DNA of 64,000 bases, taken from contig NZ_CP146991.1 in NCBI RefSeq assembly GCF_001941975.2, forward strand, positions 638,501 to 702,500, in the 5' to 3' direction. The stretch is from Sporomusa sphaeroides DSM 2875 (GTDB lineage Bacteria > Bacillota > Negativicutes > Sporomusales > Sporomusaceae). Made by a program: the position numbers and the translations under genes. Under the pieces are notes generated by a model. That model made no database searches. It saw only the letters and a list, made by a program, of their open reading frames with translations, and was not told the DNA's origin. This document shows positions 16,863 to 63,132 of the stretch, piece by piece. Numbering within the stretch: position 1 is the stretch's first letter; each line of letters starts with the position of its first letter.

Positions 16863-16883
16863 ATCATTACAAAGGTGATGGCA

Positions 16884-17855
16884 GTGAGAATTACGACAAA
16901 ACTGCAAATTTTGATGATGCTAGGGGCAGTTCTGCCTGTTTCCGTCATTATAATGATCGACCAAGTGGCAATCGGGGCAGGTATCGCGCTATTGGTGGGA
17001 CTGCTGGGGCCCTATGTGGCGGAAGAGTGGCTGGTAACCAGAGATCTGCAGGCCATCCGGCGTTTTTGCCAACATGTCAAAGACGGAAAATATTTGGTTC
17101 CGATCGCTTTGCCTAACGAATTGCCGGCAGGTGATGACGAGAACGAATTTGTTTCTGTAAGGCGTGATATGAACTGGATGGCCCGGGCGATTAATTTGCG
17201 GGAAAGTCAATTAAAGGCTGTCATCGACGAATTGGCTGCGGCCCGACAGGAATTGCTTGACCAAAAAGAAGAGATGGAAACGGTTAACAAGCGTCTTATC
17301 GAGATGGCTATGACTGACTCACTGACAGGCTTGTCGAACAGACGTCATTTCTTTGACCATCTGGAGCAGGAAGTATGCCGGGTAAATCGCAACAGGCAGA
17401 ATATTTCCTTGTTTATGCTGGATGTAGATCATTTTAAAAAAGTTAATGATACCCATGGGCATCAGACCGGGGACACTGTTTTGCAAGCCATTGCCGCTAT
17501 TTTGCGCAACCGTATCCGGCGTAGTGATATGGTTGCCCGGATTGGCGGTGAAGAATTCGCGGTGCTGCTTTCCGATACAGATAGTATTGAAGCTATGCAT
17601 TTGGCCGAACAAATACGGATTAGTATCAAAAACTATTCCTTTCAAACCTGTGATGGCCAGAGTATGAGGCTCACCTGCTCTATTGGCGTCTGCGGCAGCG
17701 CCGGTTGTAATACCGAACAGCTGTATAAATATGCCGATTTGGCGTTGTATCATGCCAAGAATTCGGGTAGAGACAGGGTAGCCTATTATGACTGCGAGGC
17801 ACAGGGACAGGCCACCGGCGAAGAACAGGAGAACCAGAAAGGTGTGACTCATTAA
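16884..17855 (+). CDS. Membrane-anchored diguanylate cyclase (GGDEF)
   Basis: The protein should make cyclic di-GMP. It has two N-terminal hydrophobic segments (about residues 7-22 and 25-45), a HAMP-like/coiled linker (residues about 85-135, ending KEEMETVNKRLIEMAMTDSLTGLSNRR) and a GGDEF domain with GGEEF near residue 230. RRSD five residues before GGEEF is a feedback I-site (RxxD). GTG 16884 is preferred because AAAGG is eight bases upstream; GTG 16875 and ATG 16878 are also in frame but overlap or crowd the site. Its stop overlaps the ATG of the HD-GYP gene by one base, so the two are translationally coupled. Confidence 0.9.
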   Translation: MRITTKLQILMMLGAVLPVSVIIMIDQVAIGAGIALLVGLLGPYVAEEWLVTRDLQAIRRFCQHVKDGKYLVPIALPNELPAGDDENEFVSVRRDMNWMARAINLRESQLKAVIDELAAARQELLDQKEEMETVNKRLIEMAMTDSLTGLSNRRHFFDHLEQEVCRVNRNRQNISLFMLDVDHFKKVNDTHGHQTGDTVLQAIAAILRNRIRRSDMVARIGGEEFAVLLSDTDSIEAMHLAEQIRISIKNYSFQTCDGQSMRLTCSIGVCGSAGCNTEQLYKYADLALYHAKNSGRDRVAYYDCEAQGQATGEEQENQKGVTH

Positions 17856-18451
17856 TGGATAAATTATTCCAGGAAGACGGCATACACGAGTTTGTGGAGG
17901 CCTTTACAGCGGCGCTTGACGCCAAAAATACATATACCAGAGGACATTCAGACCGGGTGGCCGAGCTTGCGGCCGCCATTGCCAGAGAATTGGGCATGAC
18001 AAAAACCAGTCAGGATAACATTCATGTGGCTGCCCATCTTCATGATATCGGGAAAATCGGTATACCTGATCATATTCTGCTGAAACCCGGCCGGCTGTCC
18101 CCTGATGAGTTTAATGTCATTAAAAGTCACCCCCAGGTGGGTTTTGAAATTTTAAATAAAGTCACGCTGCTCCGGCCTACGGCCGAAATCGTCCGGTATC
18201 ATCATGAACGCTGGGATGGTTTAGGCTACCCGGCAGGACTGAAGGGCGAGGATATTCCGCTGGGAGCGAGAATCATCGCCCTTGCCGATGCTTTTGATGC
18301 TATGACCAGTGCCCGTTCCTACCGCTTGCCGATGACACAGGCCGCAGCCGTGCAGGAGGTGCTGCGCTGTCGGGGAACGCAATTTGACCCGGATATTGTC
18401 GATGCTTTTGTTGCGTTTTGTCAGGCAGGACAGGAAAAGGGAGTCTGTTAA
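17855..18451 (+). CDS. HD-GYP domain cyclic di-GMP phosphodiesterase
   Basis: This 198-residue protein is almost only an HD-GYP domain: HLHDIGKIGIPDHIL (HD pair) near residue 63, HPQVGFEIL, HHERWDGLGYPAG (GYP motif) near 115, and LADAFDAMTSARSYR. It would hydrolyse c-di-GMP to pGpG or GMP using a metal centre. It is coupled to the GGDEF gene by a TAATG overlap, so synthesis and breakdown activities are made from one transcript. The Fur boxes upstream imply iron control of both. There is no sensor domain of its own. Confidence 0.9.
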   Translation: MDKLFQEDGIHEFVEAFTAALDAKNTYTRGHSDRVAELAAAIARELGMTKTSQDNIHVAAHLHDIGKIGIPDHILLKPGRLSPDEFNVIKSHPQVGFEILNKVTLLRPTAEIVRYHHERWDGLGYPAGLKGEDIPLGARIIALADAFDAMTSARSYRLPMTQAAAVQEVLRCRGTQFDPDIVDAFVAFCQAGQEKGVC

Positions 18452-56845: not shown

Positions 56846-57130
56846 GTGAATATAAAACCTTCGGCCGCAATACGCAAGAATTATAACGAAATATCTGCAC
56901 TTTGTAAAACTACTAAGGAACCGGTTTTTCTCACGAAAAATGGTGAGGGCGATCTGGTAGTCATGGATATAGATACTTTTTCCCGTCGGGAAAGTATGCT
57001 CAAGCTGAGGGAACAGCTTGTGGCAGTTGAGGAAGACCGTTTGATGGGCAAAAGAGGCTTTTCCATTGATGAAATGAATGAAATGATGACAAAAGCTATT
57101 AAAGAGTCTGTCAATGTGCAGCGTCTCTAA
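56846..57130 (+). CDS. Phd/YefM-family antitoxin
   Basis: The 94-residue protein matches the Phd/YefM antitoxin fold: NIKPSAAIRKNYNEISALCKTTKEPVFLTKNGEGDLVVMDIDTF, with a charged C-terminal helix (FSIDEMNEMMTKAI) that would bind the toxin. GTG 56846 is used because AGGAGG lies eight bases upstream. Its last codons overlap the start of a RelE/ParE-type gene, which carries a frameshift, so the antitoxin may now lack a functional partner here. Confidence 0.85.
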   Translation: MNIKPSAAIRKNYNEISALCKTTKEPVFLTKNGEGDLVVMDIDTFSRRESMLKLREQLVAVEEDRLMGKRGFSIDEMNEMMTKAIKESVNVQRL

Positions 57131-57420
57131 GCGCTATCGGGTCATTTTCTCGGAGCGAACGGGGGAAATGCTTGTGCAGCATGTCCGTTTTGTCGCTCAA
57201 GTTAGTTCCCAGGCAGCGGATAAGCTAAGACTAGGTATAATTGAATCTGCAAAATTCTTGCAAAAGTTTCCCGAACATGGGGCATGACTTATTGATCGCA
57301 AATGTCTATAGGAAACTGCTTGTGGACAAACGTTACCTCTTTATTTACAAGATTAAAGACAATACGGTATATCTTGATTATGTGGTTGATTGCCGTCAAG
57401 AGTACCCCTGGTTGATTTAA
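57114..57420 (+). pseudogene. RelE/ParE-type toxin gene with frameshift
   Basis: From ATG 57114 the frame reads YRVIFSERTGEML and continues through LRLGIIESAKFLQKFPEHG to a stop at 57285-57287. In another frame from 57283 the expected C-terminus continues (LLIANVYRKLLVDKRYLFIYKI, then VDCRQEYPWLI) up to a stop at 57420. One extra G in the GGGG run at 57279-57282 explains the break. It overlaps the antitoxin gene, as usual for such modules. It could be a true inactivation, a programmed shift, or a base-call error. Confidence 0.78.
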
Positions 57421-57459: not shown

Positions 57460-57488
57460 TTGACAGGTATTTCCGGATATGGTATAGT
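57460..57488 (+). promoter_or_regulatory. Sigma-A promoter of the first cobalamin riboswitch
   Basis: TTGACA (57460-57465), 17-base spacer, TATAGT (57483-57488). Transcription should start about 25 bases before the aptamer. Confidence 0.75.
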
Positions 57489-57520
57489 CATATGCATAGC
57501 AAGGATAAACTAAATATTTC

Positions 57521-57690
57521 GAGATAGGTGCCCTTAGGGGCTTAATAGGGAAGTCCGGTTAGAAGCCGGCGCGGTCCCGCCACTGTAACGGGGAGTAAGC
57601 TTAAGTTATACCACTGGGATGTATTTCCTGGGAAGGTTTAAGCAAGCCATGATCCGGAGTCAGGAGAACTGCCTGTCTGACAATCACCGT
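57521..57690 (+). ncRNA. Cobalamin riboswitch 1 (no gene directly downstream)
   Basis: The aptamer has the conserved order of AdoCbl riboswitches: TAGGTGCC, GGGAAGTCCGG, GCGGTCCCGCCACTGTAA, then the B12 box region (AGTCAGGAGAACTGCC) and a CAATCACCG end. CACCCACGAGG and GGGGAGGGG follow, then two terminators at 57756-57784 and 57803-57835. The next feature is riboswitch 2, not a gene. It therefore works in tandem with riboswitch 2 or is an orphan. It is highly similar to riboswitch 3. Confidence 0.93.
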
Positions 57691-57755
57691 TTTTCACCCA
57701 CGAGGTATGGGGAGGGGATTACAGTAGACGCTTCTATGGCGTAGCTGATTAATTC

Positions 57756-57835
57756 GCTCCTGGTATATAAACCAGGAGCTTTCTATTAGTCTACTGATTA
57801 TTACTCCCAGCTTTTCAACGGTTGGGAGTTTTAAT
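57756..57835 (+). terminator. Twin terminators after riboswitch 1
   Basis: First, GCTCCTGGT/ACCAGGAGC with TTTC (57756-57784); second, ACTCCCA/TGGGAGT with TTTTA (57803-57835). Confidence 0.8.
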
Positions 57836-57943
57836 ATTTCTTCAGGACATTCTTCTCAAAACGCTCCTTTCGAACTTTTGCGCCGCTGGCGCGCGGGCCA
57901 ATTTGGCCCTAATTTTTTACAATTATACTTTAACATAAAAATT

Positions 57944-57983
57944 GTATTCAACAACCAATAGCGTGGCAAGAGCAGTTGAATAC
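57944..57983 (+). promoter_or_regulatory. Dyad between riboswitches 1 and 2
   Basis: TGTATTCAAC and GTTGAATACA are perfect 10-base arms 20 bases apart. The right arm overlaps a possible weak promoter (TTGAAT-N17-TATGAC, 57976-58004) for riboswitch 2. It could be an operator or an RNA hairpin. Confidence 0.4.
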
Positions 57984-58005
57984 ACCGGGAAAACTTAATA
58001 TGACA

Positions 58006-58160
58006 GTATAGGTGCCTGCGAGGCTTAATAGATAAGCCGGTGCAATACCGGCGCGGTCCCGCCACTGTAATGGGGAGCAAACTCAAAAAATGTCACTCTT
58101 GGGAAGGCCTGAGCCAGCGATGATCCAGAGCCAGGAGAACTGCCTATATGATAATCACCG
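58006..58160 (+). ncRNA. Cobalamin riboswitch 2
   Basis: TAGGTGCCTGCGAGGCTTAA, GCGCGGTCCCGCCACTGTAA, AGCCAGGAGAACTGCC and ATAATCACCG define the aptamer; it is shorter than the other three in its variable arm. ATCCACGAGCGATGGGGAGG follows. Two terminators (58222-58248, CCGGCGTAT/ATACGCCGG; 58273-58302, GTCTCCCTG/CAGGGAGAC) lie between it and the HD-GYP-like gene at 58448. Confidence 0.92.
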
Positions 58161-58221
58161 TTTTATCCACGAGCGATGGGGAGGGGATTAGCGCAGCAGT
58201 TTGGCTTGTGCTTATTTTGTC

Positions 58222-58302
58222 CCGGCGTATGTTATACGCCGGAATTTTATCGGTATAGCTACTGTTTTGTCTGTCTCCCTGCCTTTCAGCAGGGAGACTT
58301 TT
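58222..58302 (+). terminator. Twin terminators after riboswitch 2
   Basis: CCGGCGTAT/ATACGCCGG followed by AATTTTAT, and GTCTCCCTG/CAGGGAGAC followed by TTTTG. Together with the riboswitch they should shut down the downstream genes when cobalamin is present. Confidence 0.82.
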
Positions 58303-58447
58303 GTGTTATGGCTCGCAGCTTTCCAGGGGATGCCGCAATATTGCAGCGGGAGATAATAGCGTAATGCTCCCATCACTGTCGTGGGTCCTGCCCTTCGCTT
58401 TAACGGTTTTGACTGACTAAGACGGTTTATAAACAAGGAGGATACCA

Positions 58448-59020
58448 ATGAGGAGAATTGAAAAGTTAATGGAACTTTTTCACAACTATGACCCCGCTAC
58501 ATTGAGGCATTGTCAAAGTGTTGGTATGCACATGCTGGAATGGGCGGATTGTATGGGGTTTTCCGATAAAAAAATACAAATAGCATATTATTGTGGCTTA
58601 ATGCATGATATCGGCAGATTGTGCCTGCCTGGCAATGTATTTAATAAACTTGAACCATTATCAGACGACGAACAGGATATGCACAAACTTCATACGGTAT
58701 ATGGCTGGGTCATCCTTAATAGTGTGGGGCTGAAGGAAATAAGTCCTATTGTTCGTTATCACCATGAACGGTATGATGGAACAGGATATCCGGAAGGCCT
58801 GAAAGAAGCCGAAATTCCCTTTTTAAGCAGAATGCTTTCTATCTGCGATGCTTTCGATGAGATGACAAACAGGCAAGGAACGAATAATCTAAGCGGCCGC
58901 CAGGCGTTGCAAGCAGTGGAAACCTGCGCCGGGACACGGTTTGATCCGTGGCTGTGCCGGCAATTTGTCAGTTATATAAGGAAAGTAGAAACACTAAAAG
59001 CGGTTGCTAATTTCGCATAA
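58448..59020 (+). CDS. HD-GYP-like domain protein under B12 riboswitch control
   Basis: The 190-residue protein is a stand-alone HD domain with HD-GYP marks: GLMHDIGRLCLPGNVF near residue 50, HTVYGWVIL, RYHHERYDGTGYPEGL near 103 and LSICDAFDEMTNRQG. It could hydrolyse c-di-GMP or another cyclic nucleotide. HxxGxP-type substitutions (GRLCLP for GKIGIP) are mild. AAGGAGG lies upstream of ATG 58448. It follows riboswitches 1 and 2, so expression should rise when cobalamin is scarce, an unusual setting for a signalling enzyme. Confidence 0.85.
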   Translation: MRRIEKLMELFHNYDPATLRHCQSVGMHMLEWADCMGFSDKKIQIAYYCGLMHDIGRLCLPGNVFNKLEPLSDDEQDMHKLHTVYGWVILNSVGLKEISPIVRYHHERYDGTGYPEGLKEAEIPFLSRMLSICDAFDEMTNRQGTNNLSGRQALQAVETCAGTRFDPWLCRQFVSYIRKVETLKAVANFA

Positions 59021-59058
59021 ACCGGTTGATATCAGATAATATAAGAGGGATGTGTAGT

Positions 59059-59757
59059 ATGATTTTACATATTGCTAACGGCTCAATACTGAAATCCTAT
59101 TTAGAGACTAAAGGCATTTCAGGCCAGAAGATTATTGCGTTTAATGAATCCATGATTACCGGGAAATGCGCGGAGACAATTTTTAGTGAGGAATTCTTTC
59201 AATTACGGGCAGAAACCTTACAGGTTGATTATGAGCGCTATAACGAATTGACGGTGACAGAACTAGAGGCATTATTAAGTCACTCGTATTCGGAGATTAT
59301 ATTATGGTTTGATGCCGATATGTTTTGTCAGATGAATATTTTAACCTTGTGCGCCTATCTGGATGCCAGCAACTATCAGGGGGAAGTGCATTTGCATATT
59401 ATCCGGCACGATTTTTGGCAATATGATAGTTTGCAGGACATAATACTTATATCCTATCAAATTAACCCTGCGGGATATTACGAGATATACCGGGAGGTTC
59501 TCTTGCAAAGATGGCCAGCAAGAGAAAAGTATCCGGTTTTTGCAGAATTAAACGCAGGAATTAACTTGTACACAAACTATATTTCCGCTAATAGTGATAT
59601 TCGGTTAGCCATAACAAAAATGGTTAAAGAAAACAAAGATAAACCGTTTGTAATAAAAGAAATAAACGAGAAATATCCGCATTATGGTATCGGTGATTAC
59701 AATATTCAGCTGATTTATCGTGATATAGTAGATACGATTCAGCTTAATATGGATTGA
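59059..59757 (+). CDS. DUF1835-domain protein
   Basis: The 232-residue protein matches DUF1835: LHIANGSILKSYLETKGISGQKIIAFNESM at the N-terminus and the conserved IILWFDADMFCQMNIL near residue 80, followed by LHIIRH. The C-terminal part is a helical region ending NEKYPHYGIGDYNIQLIYRDIV. Function unknown. ATG 59059 is chosen over an upstream frame start because GAGGGATG lies just before it. It is 38 bases after the HD-GYP-like gene and presumably in the same riboswitch-controlled transcript. Its stop codon is overlapped by the promoter of riboswitch 3. Confidence 0.78.
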   Translation: MILHIANGSILKSYLETKGISGQKIIAFNESMITGKCAETIFSEEFFQLRAETLQVDYERYNELTVTELEALLSHSYSEIILWFDADMFCQMNILTLCAYLDASNYQGEVHLHIIRHDFWQYDSLQDIILISYQINPAGYYEIYREVLLQRWPAREKYPVFAELNAGINLYTNYISANSDIRLAITKMVKENKDKPFVIKEINEKYPHYGIGDYNIQLIYRDIVDTIQLNMD

Positions 59758-59782
59758 CAATCACTTCCTGCAGTGTTATGCT
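59754..59782 (+). promoter_or_regulatory. Sigma-A promoter of riboswitch 3
   Basis: TTGACA (59754-59759) overlaps the upstream stop codon; 17-base spacer; TATGCT (59777-59782). The aptamer begins about 25 bases later. Confidence 0.72.
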
Positions 59783-59808
59783 AATTTCATAAGAAAACTA
59801 CATATGTT

Positions 59809-59977
59809 AGAGATAGGTGCCTTACAGGCTTAATAGGGAAGACCGGTTAAATGCCGGCGCGGTCCCGCCACTGTAACGGGGAGCAGGCTTAAGATATACC
59901 ACTGGGATGTATTTTCTGGGAAGGTTTAAGCAGGCTATGATCCGGAGTCAGGAGAACTGCCTATCTGACAATCGCCG
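59809..59977 (+). ncRNA. Cobalamin riboswitch 3, upstream of cbiK
   Basis: TAGGTGCCTTACAGGC, GGGAAGACCGG, GCGGTCCCGCCACTGTAACG, AGTCAGGAGAACTGCC and ACAATCGCCG show the AdoCbl aptamer. It closely resembles riboswitch 1, both in the aptamer and in the platform (ACCCACGAGGTATGGGGAGG, GGCGTAACTGG, GCTCCTGG). It is followed by twin terminators and the cobalt chelatase gene. Confidence 0.94.
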
Positions 59978-60043
59978 TTTGTTACCCACGAGGTATGGGG
60001 AGGGGATTATAGTAGGCGCTTTTATGGCGTAACTGGCTAATTC

Positions 60044-60205: not shown

Positions 60206-61138
60206 ATGAAAAACATCTATTCGATTATCACCACCCTGTGCATGCTGGCTGTATTTGGCTGCGTAAGTCTGGTTCCGTCACTGGCAGCGGCTGCACCGGC
60301 TCAGGCAGGCAAAAAGGCTATTTTAGTTGTAAGCTTTGGTACTACGTATCCTGAAACCTTAAAGACAACCATTGAAGCTGTTGAAACCAAAATAAAAGCA
60401 GAATTTCCCGAGTACGAAGTTCGCCGGGCTTTTACTTCCCGGATTATCATTAAAAGAATTGCTGAACGTGACGGCGTGAAAATCGATACCGAAAAAGAAG
60501 CGCTTGACCGTTTAAAAGCCGAAGGCTTTAATGAAGTTATTGTTCAGCCGCTGCATATTGCTGCCGGTGAAGAGTTTGATTTGGTGAAGGGTGTTGTAAA
60601 ACATCATGAAGCCGCTAAAACCTTTGACAAAATTGCGTTAGGCAGACCTATTATGTATTTTATGGGACAAGAAGAGAAACCTGATGACTATTTAGCTGCT
60701 GCTAAAGCATTAGAAAACCAGTTCCCCAAACAGAAAAAAGACGAAGCCATTGTACTGATGGGACATGGTGGCAGCCATCCCGGAAATTCGGCTTATGCCG
60801 CCATGCAGCTTAAATTACAGGATGAAGGCTATAAAAACGTATATCTGTTCACCGTGGAAGGGTATCCGTCCTTCGACAATATGCTGGCTAAATTAAAAGC
60901 CAACAAAGTAAAAAAAGTTACTCTTATGCCGTTCATGCTGGTAGCCGGTGACCATGCTACCAACGATATGGCCGGTGATGAAGAGGATTCAGCAAAAAGC
61001 CAGCTTATTGCCGCCGGCTTTAAAGTAGACACTTATGTGCATGGCTTGGGTGAAAATGCAGGTTTTCAAGATATTTATGTCCAACATGTTAAAGATGCCA
61101 TTGATGAACTGAATAACCCGGAAGCTAAAAAGCACTAA
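60206..61138 (+). CDS. cbiK: Secreted sirohydrochlorin cobaltochelatase CbiK
   Basis: This class II chelatase inserts Co2+ into sirohydrochlorin in anaerobic B12 synthesis. The 310-residue protein has a signal peptide (about residues 1-30, CVSLVPSLAAAAPAQA), followed by KKAILVVSFGTTYPETLKTTIEAV, the CbiK start, VQPLHIAAGEEFD (ligand His near 145), VLMGHGGSHPGNSAY and LMPFMLVAGDHATNDMAGDE (second His). An exported CbiK is like the periplasmic CbiK of Desulfovibrio and suggests extracytoplasmic metal trapping or chelation. GAAGGAG is rather far (13 bases) from the ATG. Confidence 0.9.
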   Translation: MKNIYSIITTLCMLAVFGCVSLVPSLAAAAPAQAGKKAILVVSFGTTYPETLKTTIEAVETKIKAEFPEYEVRRAFTSRIIIKRIAERDGVKIDTEKEALDRLKAEGFNEVIVQPLHIAAGEEFDLVKGVVKHHEAAKTFDKIALGRPIMYFMGQEEKPDDYLAAAKALENQFPKQKKDEAIVLMGHGGSHPGNSAYAAMQLKLQDEGYKNVYLFTVEGYPSFDNMLAKLKANKVKKVTLMPFMLVAGDHATNDMAGDEEDSAKSQLIAAGFKVDTYVHGLGENAGFQDIYVQHVKDAIDELNNPEAKKH

Positions 61139-61159
61139 AAGCAAAACCAAATAACAAAA

Positions 61160-61330
61160 GAGTTAGGTGCCCTACGGGGCTTAATAGGGAAGTCCGGTGA
61201 AAAGCCGGCGCGGTCCCGCCACTGTAATGGGGAGCAAATCCAAGAATATGCCACTGGGATGAAAAGTCCTGGGAAGGTTTGGATGAGCCGTGAACCAGAG
61301 TCAGGAGAACTGCCTAGCTGACAGTCGCCG
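61160..61330 (+). ncRNA. Cobalamin riboswitch 4, upstream of the transporter genes
   Basis: TAGGTGCCCTACGGGGC, GGGAAGTCCGG, GCGGTCCCGCCACTGTAATG, AGTCAGGAGAACTGCC and ACAGTCGCCG define it. No separate promoter was found in the 21 bases after cbiK, so it is probably an internal riboswitch on the cbiK transcript. A single strong terminator follows. Confidence 0.93.
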
Positions 61331-61432
61331 TTTTACCCACGAGGCATGGGGAGGGGATTACAGTAGATGGTATGTATGCTGAAGACTCACGGGCCCTGGG
61401 GTGCCGGATGCTGCAAAATATATCAAAACTGA

Positions 61433-61491: not shown

Positions 61492-63132
61492 TTGACCATC
61501 AAAAAAGCACTGACCGGCGTCGTGGCAGTGCTGTTGGTAATGTTGACAATTACCGGACAGGCCCAGGAGGGAGTATCTTTTTCCTGTCAATTTCCGTATT
61601 ATCTGGGAAAGGTCAGGGATTCTGTGATTCCCGGCGGGCAGACGGCAGCGCTGTTTAGTATTGAACATCGTGGTCTAAGCGACACAACGGTGACAGTGAC
61701 CATCAGTCTGCCGCCTGGCTTTAGCCCGGCCGGTTCTCAGGAAAACTGGGAGGTAACCAGGCAAGCAGACCGGTATTCCTTAACCAGAGATATGCTGCTG
61801 TCGGGAGGGTATAGTCAGTGGTATGATTTGCTGTCCCTGCAGGTGGCGGCAGATTTGCCGCCCGGCAGGTATACCGCTGCCGTGACGGCAGGAGACAATA
61901 CACAGCAGATACCGGTTACCGTAGGGGCCGGTACCGGTGACGCCGCCGTGCCGGTCACACTGGCAGGTATGGTTCTGCCGTTGGATAAGGACGGCAAAAC
62001 CGATGACCGTGTAGGGCGCAATGTCTTGGTGCTGCGGGACAGACAATGGGATTACTACAAAAATTTATTTATTGGCAAAGGCGCTTCGAATCAAGAAATT
62101 GAGGCCATTCACCCGGTAACTCACCTGGGCGTGGATATTGTCAATCCAGCCGGGGTGCAAAAACTGGTTATTGTTACCGTTCATCTCTTAGATGCGGGTC
62201 GTCAGCCGGTGAGCGGCTTGTTTACTCCCGGTGCGACCAATGAAGATGTCGATGGCGGCGCGCTGGATGGTCACAAGGAATATTTAGAGATGTTTACGGC
62301 TTTGAACGGTGACTCCCGGCAGCGCCTGCAGCTGCCTGTATATGCGGATGAACGCAATTTGACCGGCGGGGATTATATCCTCCGGGCAGAACTGAGCGAC
62401 GGGGTCAAGGCGCCGTTGCTGTACGAAGTGCCGCTTACTATTATCAAAAAAGACAACAAAGCCCTGATAGTAGTCAGTAGTGCCGCCCTGGCGGTATTGA
62501 CAGGCTTGCTGCTTTCCCTCAAGCGCCTGCGGCGAGTATTGGCGGTGCTGAAAACACGCTGGCTGGTAACCATTGCCTTGTTTGGTGCGGCAGCTTTTGC
62601 GGTGGTCAATGTACCGTCCACTTTATTAAATGATTTTTTTCATATTTTGCTGGGCCCATTCGGATTTTTAATTACCGGCCTGTTTAGCAGCATATTTCTC
62701 TATATGATGGTGGTGGCGCTGGTCATACTCATTCCCCAGCCCGGGGTGGTGGCGCTGATGACCGTTGTTCGCATGCTGCTCGGGATGCTGGCATTTGGTC
62801 AAATCTCACCCATTGGCCTGTTATCCTATGGTCTGCATGCGCTGCTGCTGGAGCTGCTGATTTATGGCAGTGGCATGTATGGCTGGCTGCAGCAACGGGA
62901 AGACAACCCCATACCCTGGGACAAGATCGCGCTGTTGGCTGTCAGCTGTGCGGTGGCTGATACCATCGCAGCCTATGTGAGCTTGCAGGCGATGGCGTTT
63001 TTGTACCGCATGTATTATGCTGCCTGGTATATTGCATTGGTCTTACTGTTTAACGGCTTTATCTATACCATAATCGGCGCCGCCTGTGGCACAGCCTTAG
63101 GCAAACGACTGGCCAGAGTAGGGGGAGATTGA
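61492..63132 (+). CDS. Fusion of an extracytoplasmic domain with an ECF S-component-like membrane domain
   Basis: The 546-residue protein has a signal peptide (about 1-24), an extracytoplasmic beta-rich region (about 25-325, with SLPPGFSPAGSQENWEV and LPVYADERNLTGGDYILRAEL), then six or so hydrophobic segments: one at about 328-347, and a cluster at 360-540 (ALFGAAAFAVVNVPSTLLNDFFHILLG begins it). The C-terminal half resembles S components of ECF importers. The TTG start has AAGGA upstream. An ECF-type ATPase gene follows three bases later. Control by a B12 riboswitch suggests uptake of cobalt, a corrinoid or a precursor. Function inferred. Confidence 0.72.
   Translation: MTIKKALTGVVAVLLVMLTITGQAQEGVSFSCQFPYYLGKVRDSVIPGGQTAALFSIEHRGLSDTTVTVTISLPPGFSPAGSQENWEVTRQADRYSLTRDMLLSGGYSQWYDLLSLQVAADLPPGRYTAAVTAGDNTQQIPVTVGAGTGDAAVPVTLAGMVLPLDKDGKTDDRVGRNVLVLRDRQWDYYKNLFIGKGASNQEIEAIHPVTHLGVDIVNPAGVQKLVIVTVHLLDAGRQPVSGLFTPGATNEDVDGGALDGHKEYLEMFTALNGDSRQRLQLPVYADERNLTGGDYILRAELSDGVKAPLLYEVPLTIIKKDNKALIVVSSAALAVLTGLLLSLKRLRRVLAVLKTRWLVTIALFGAAAFAVVNVPSTLLNDFFHILLGPFGFLITGLFSSIFLYMMVVALVILIPQPGVVALMTVVRMLLGMLAFGQISPIGLLSYGLHALLLELLIYGSGMYGWLQQREDNPIPWDKIALLAVSCAVADTIAAYVSLQAMAFLYRMYYAAWYIALVLLFNGFIYTIIGAACGTALGKRLARVGGD

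Follow-up and report, generated by a model that had tools for sequence, protein, structure and literature searches.

Two tandem cobalamin riboswitches (RS1 and RS2) in Sporomusa sphaeroides appear, on balance, to lie on one transcript and to gate an operon headed by an HD-GYP gene through transcription termination, which would link corrinoid supply to c-di-GMP. The window, that is, the whole stretch of 64,000 nucleotides analyzed (G000:C1:638501-702500), carries four cobalamin aptamers, all of them within its last 7 kb and far above the RF00174 gathering score of 31.5 bits (98-115 bits), with RS1 and RS2 matched over model positions 1-189. As summarized in Table 1, RS1 and RS2 precede two same-strand ORFs only before the RS3 promoter is reached, and the first ORF matches HD_5 (PF13487) at 101 bits; the layout reported in the first-pass annotation, in which the two riboswitches stand before just an HD-GYP-like gene and a DUF1835 gene, was thus confirmed. 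RS1 and RS2 are more readily understood as a tandem pair sharing a single transcript than as two separate controls.

Table 1. Features of the tandem-riboswitch operon, its downstream neighbors, and related loci in congeners (G004 and G006); coordinates without a genome prefix are window positions
Feature	Position	Strand	Remarks
Promoter of HD operon	57460..57488	+	TTGACA-17-TATAGT, TG extension, 11/12, near consensus
RS1, cobalamin riboswitch aptamer	57509..57690	+	RF00174, 114.5 bits, E 6e-28
RS1 first hairpin, GCTCCTGG-CCAGGAGC	57756..57779	+	Terminator/anti-aptamer switch by predicted pairing
RS1 intrinsic terminator	57803..57829	+	5′ arm with 8-bp complement at 57591-57598 inside aptamer
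Weak terminator-like hairpin, third after RS1 and ahead of RS2	57895..57909	+	
RS2, cobalamin riboswitch aptamer, second of tandem	57993..58161	+	RF00174, 98.3 bits
RS2 first hairpin, terminator-like	58222..58242	+	
RS2 intrinsic terminator, GTCTCCCTGC-GCAGGGAGAC-TTTT	58273..58298	+	
HD-GYP protein, 190 aa, without sensor or receiver domain	58448..59020	+	Shine-Dalgarno AAGGAGG just 5′
DUF1835-like protein, 232 aa	59059..59757	+	38 bp past HD gene; ORF 59026/59059-59757
Promoter of next unit	59754..59782	+	TTGACA-17-TATGCT; overlaps 3′ end of DUF1835-like gene
RS3, cobalamin riboswitch before cbiK	59798..59978	+	RF00174, 109.1 bits
CbiK cobaltochelatase	60206..61138	+	PF06180, 338.7 bits
RS4, cobalamin riboswitch before ECF-type transporter unit	61148..61331	+	RF00174, 107.4 bits; ECF ATPase from 63136 on
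G006 HD-GYP ortholog	G006:C1:416883-417458		Riboswitch 398 nt upstream, cobO next; 56-58% identical to window protein
G006 HD-PAS-GAF-GGDEF protein, 667 aa	G006:C1:351717-353720		Riboswitch 272 nt away
G004 HD-PAS-GAF protein, 514 aa	G004:C49:54631-56175		Riboswitch 201 nt away

Both riboswitches are followed by elements of an expression platform, RS1 by terminators and a hairpin arm complementary to its B12 box, and RS2 by terminators and a weaker complement. In the first RS1 hairpin, the 5′ arm can pair with the B12 box (57659-57666) over 8 bp, 2 of them G-U, and this hairpin-arm/B12-box complementarity was also present in RS3 and, across the genus, in 48 of 143 riboswitches compared with 0 in shuffled sequences, whereas the competing pairing of RS2 (8 bp at 58177-58184) contains 3 G-U pairs. 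Promoter-like matches across the region were found at chance level (9 versus 7.3 expected), and therefore only the two strong promoters listed in Table 1 count. On the + strand, sigma-70-like sites scoring at least 9/12 were detected neither between RS1 and RS2 nor from 58299 to the HD start, and the separate constitutive promoter at 58302-58448 that the first-pass annotation had named as contrary evidence was not seen in this genome. In the genus stretches examined, a promoter score of at least 10 was recorded for 1 of 22 second-in-tandem riboswitches (those at most 600 nt after another), versus 85 of 138 others and 5 of 160 shuffled sequences. Since no promoter was found at RS2 and promoters are generally absent from second-in-tandem switches, RS2 most likely depends on readthrough from RS1. 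With one strong promoter before RS1, none at threshold later, and terminators after both aptamers, B12 should turn the operon off; the arrangement has the anatomy of transcription-terminating OFF switches, and from it we infer both the ligand response and the OFF direction. At each of the three HD loci in congeners, the riboswitch likewise has a comparable promoter in front of it. Just upstream of RS1 (window 56846-57420), a YefM/Phd-like antitoxin is followed by a RelE/ParE-like toxin frame broken by stops.

The product of the first gene was then compared with solved HD-GYP enzymes. A profile search matched it to 4mcw (E 1.4e-22), and its AF2 model (pLDDT 89.5) adopted the HD-GYP fold, with Foldseek matches to 4mcw (E 3.2e-9, TMq 0.82), 4r8z, and 9rbz. 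The H..HD..H..HH..D set, which is the HD-GYP metal-ligand motif (PMC8177086), is complete (H21, H53, D54, H82, H105, H106, and D134), and the GYP triad is G113-Y114-P115. Because the protein has no sensory or receiver domain, its control would be through expression. Alignment to 4mcw (PmGH) placed Ala17 at the position of the PmGH trinuclear-site glutamate. That glutamate makes PmGH trinuclear (PMC8177086), and with alanine replacing it, a dinuclear metal site is expected, a kind of HD-GYP enzyme for which a single hydrolysis step is anticipated (review PMC8177086). Judged by its sequence, the most likely role of the protein is that of a two-metal phosphodiesterase for c-di-GMP (or pGpG). An in-genome comparison is offered at window positions 16875-18451, where a GGDEF protein overlaps a second stand-alone HD-GYP gene with no riboswitch.

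The DUF1835 label given to the second ORF is weak, as PF08874 (DUF1835) scored 16.4 bits against a gathering cutoff of 21.1 bits, and four scanned homologs likewise fell below every cutoff. Foldseek alone yielded no significant match for the model of this protein (AF2, pLDDT 74.5), and VIA-align gave Toprim folds: all 50 VIA rows were type IA/IIA topoisomerases (Z 8.5-9.4), and GyrB was among the structural matches (3.2 Å over 119 residues). A Toprim-like fold is therefore predicted. In the Toprim motif, the first strand is followed by a catalytic Glu and the third by a DxD; at the pLDDT of 74.5 noted above, the DUF1835-like model has DxD at 85-87 and N7-G8-S9 where the Glu would be expected. 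Homologs were found in six other genomes among 380 of the class, some of them adjoined by pyridoxamine-oxidase-like genes, and a viral search with the protein returned no match.

RS1 opens an island of about 90 kb (G000:C1:696009-785920) that holds 18 of the 31 cobalamin riboswitches of this genome, with 33 riboswitches counted in G007 and 38 in G006, and whose genes resemble cobaltochelatases, TonB-dependent receptors (btuB/tonB-like), ExbB/D, BtuF/C/D, CobO, and ECF-type components. Behind RS4, a 546-aa membrane protein (window 61492-63132) with no Pfam or NCBIfam match precedes ECF-type ATPase and T-component-like genes and is kept in the islands of G001, G004, G006, and G007. In the examined stretches of nine genus genomes, which cover a part of their riboswitches, we located 165 cobalamin riboswitches, and for 27 of these the next element was another riboswitch, before any gene. 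Elsewhere in the genus, riboswitches precede genes resembling, by eye, OmpH, porin, MATE, and Rex-type genes; at G006:C1:401840, a cobalamin riboswitch lies directly before a Rex-type redox regulator (by eye), another B12-controlled regulator.

In four of some 138 riboswitch units, spread over three of the nine genomes, the first gene was an HD-GYP gene (Table 1). The G004 protein, a 64% homolog of the G006 HD-PAS-GAF-GGDEF protein, lacks the GGDEF core through an in-frame gap that leaves only the last residues of this domain, and both genes, as the window operon does, form the island head before riboswitch-cbiK. A partial relative stands at a contig end in G002, before similar riboswitches, and the G001 and G007 islands start with riboswitch-cbiK and have no HD gene. 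Among the riboswitches examined, six of nine genomes had no riboswitch-controlled HD gene, G002 being cut by the contig end. The gene order that was expected to be kept in relatives is thus retained in part: riboswitch-HD recurs in one congener (G006), and none of the other eight genus genomes has the DUF1835-like gene. The matches listed for 380 class genomes included no further riboswitch-HD pair, and in a profile search of genome contigs, the alignment of the two orthologs picked up unrelated HD-GYP genes only, most of them from Lachnospiraceae, and no close relative. In the riboswitch tree, RS2 and the riboswitch of the G006 ortholog were not closest to each other, indicating that riboswitch and gene did not travel as one unit; a weak promoter-like site (9/12) is located just upstream of the G006 ortholog gene.

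On the assumption of 20-30 HD-GYP genes per genome, the 4 riboswitch-HD first genes compare with 0.6-0.8 expected by chance (P 0.003-0.011). The four loci probably represent only two independent events, and when they were counted as two against the same expectation, the excess was not significant (P 0.12-0.21). This closeness to chance favors an explanation in which the multiplying riboswitches of the island captured downstream genes, so that the HD gene would be a passenger under genuine B12 control with no signaling purpose. Capture of this kind is a real alternative because riboswitches of the genus also precede the unrelated genes mentioned above; moreover, many of the 165 riboswitches in the examined stretches are tandem and close in sequence, and no other genus member has the DUF1835-like gene. 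However, the same HD-GYP types stay under riboswitches in species whose proteins have diverged to 56-64% identity, the same island-head position before cbiK is taken by different HD-GYP families, and we consider capture without purpose unlikely. In favor of a riboswitch-gated signaling operon, the similar pairings kept in congeners suggest that a shortage of B12 acts on a lifestyle signal as well as on the B12 supply genes.

The G006 ortholog carries R in place of H106 and GSP in place of GYP, and with these altered motif residues, c-di-GMP hydrolysis is doubtful there and may not be the conserved function. The loss of one metal-ligand histidine and of the GYP tyrosine would suit an HD-GYP domain that serves to bind c-di-GMP, as a receptor, or a partner, and whose enzyme function is gone or secondary. 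DvhD, a metal-ligand-free HD-GYP domain that can act as a c-di-GMP receptor (PMC13090378), was among the fold matches of the window protein. The window protein, however, keeps all ligands and the GYP triad and has no output domain, which makes a receptor role improbable. The lost tyrosine, the position of the G006 ortholog directly before cobO, and the location of both orthologs inside the B12 island could also be explained by a hydrolase of cobamide metabolism (acting, e.g., on a nucleotide-loop intermediate) instead of a signaling enzyme. We find this hardly probable, since in two congeners cobO follows a riboswitch with no HD gene in between, the window protein keeps the complete HD-GYP set, and the GGDEF domain on the larger riboswitch-controlled protein points to cyclic dinucleotides; a search of the riboswitch-cobO interval in G001 and G007 for an HD remnant found none. 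The presence of cobC in all nine genus genomes (TIGR03162, above cutoff in 9/9) also speaks against such a hydrolase, and it rules out the HD protein as a stand-in for CobC (alpha-ribazole phosphatase).

A c-di-GMP context for the proposed HD-GYP phosphodiesterase is found throughout the genus. c-di-GMP-I riboswitches were detected in all nine genomes (3 here, up to 14 elsewhere), and one of the three here (G000:C1:1513336) precedes two genes, one for a PgaA-like TPR protein whose PgaA barrel match is near threshold, the other for a deacetylase resembling PgaB (GHL13, 294 bits), so that c-di-GMP probably controls a polysaccharide of the poly-N-acetylglucosamine type. The genome also shows 27 GGDEF matches, flagellins, and CdhD, the corrinoid protein of the acetyl-CoA pathway. 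The suggestion of the first-pass annotation that B12 status feeds into cyclic-dinucleotide signaling gains from these c-di-GMP riboswitches and from the G006 ortholog and the HD-PAS-GAF(-GGDEF) family in two congeners under cobalamin riboswitches; its enzymatic step, c-di-GMP hydrolysis, is predicted from the window protein, and the closest riboswitch-controlled ortholog has lost catalytic-motif residues.

We propose that a single transcript would start just after 57488 and carry both RS1 and RS2. At plentiful corrinoid, either aptamer would fold and free its downstream terminator, and polymerase would stop before the HD gene; at scarce corrinoid, both switches would let polymerase through, the pair acting as a two-step gate. 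The operon would then yield a stand-alone HD-GYP phosphodiesterase (for c-di-GMP or pGpG) together with the DUF1835-like protein, and corrinoid starvation would lower c-di-GMP and shift behavior under c-di-GMP control, such as biofilm polysaccharide and perhaps motility, in parallel with the genes for uptake and synthesis that answer to the same ligand. A riboswitch-to-riboswitch relay, which we put forward tentatively and hold to be possible though doubtful, would follow if the fall in c-di-GMP caused by HD-GYP release at low corrinoid were read by the c-di-GMP-I riboswitches, including the one before the PgaA/PgaB-like genes, coupling B12 supply to attachment or motility. Cobalamin riboswitches are regarded as controls of supply; if the link is true, a vitamin would serve as an environmental lifestyle signal via RNA alone, with no dedicated sensor protein, in bacteria that rely on corrinoid proteins for their energy metabolism. 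Natural variants exist within the genus: a riboswitch-controlled full HD-PAS-GAF-GGDEF protein, one minus the GGDEF core, and the ortholog in which catalytic residues are changed.

Riboswitch and enzyme class are each known, and the connection between them is apparently undescribed: in the open-access literature, we found no paper that joins cobalamin riboswitches to HD-GYP proteins or names an HD-GYP target. In a 2013 survey, which covered 197 genomes and 535 cobalamin riboswitches, the targets were grouped into four classes, i.e., transport, synthesis, cobalt uptake, and B12-independent isozymes (PMC3766115). The system described here shares with RF00174 regulons the aptamer family, the predicted terminator control, and an island with cbiK, cobO, btuB/tonB-like, and ECF-type genes, but its c-di-GMP-type enzyme fits none of the four classes. 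Terminator-type control has a parallel in Dehalobacter, where corrinoid starvation induces genes behind such cobalamin riboswitches (PMC4285132), and cobalamin riboswitches of Sporomusa ovata functioned as reporters in B. subtilis (PMC9600662). Many switches per genome are common to the Sporomusa and Desulfitobacterium sets, although the numbers differ, with 31 here and 38 in one congener versus the 18 cited for D. hafniense (PMC11124144). In fold, as well as in its H..HD..H..HH..D and GYP motifs, the HD protein agrees with PmGH (4mcw) and PA4781 (4r8z). It differs from PmGH in Ala17 and in the dinuclear site expected from it, and it has no sensory or receiver domain. Going by its citation in PMC11124144, Listeria pocR is a regulator under a cobalamin riboswitch and, to that extent, a precedent for such a riboswitch acting on a regulator instead of a metabolic enzyme; pocR is a transcription factor, however, whereas the target here would be a second-messenger enzyme.
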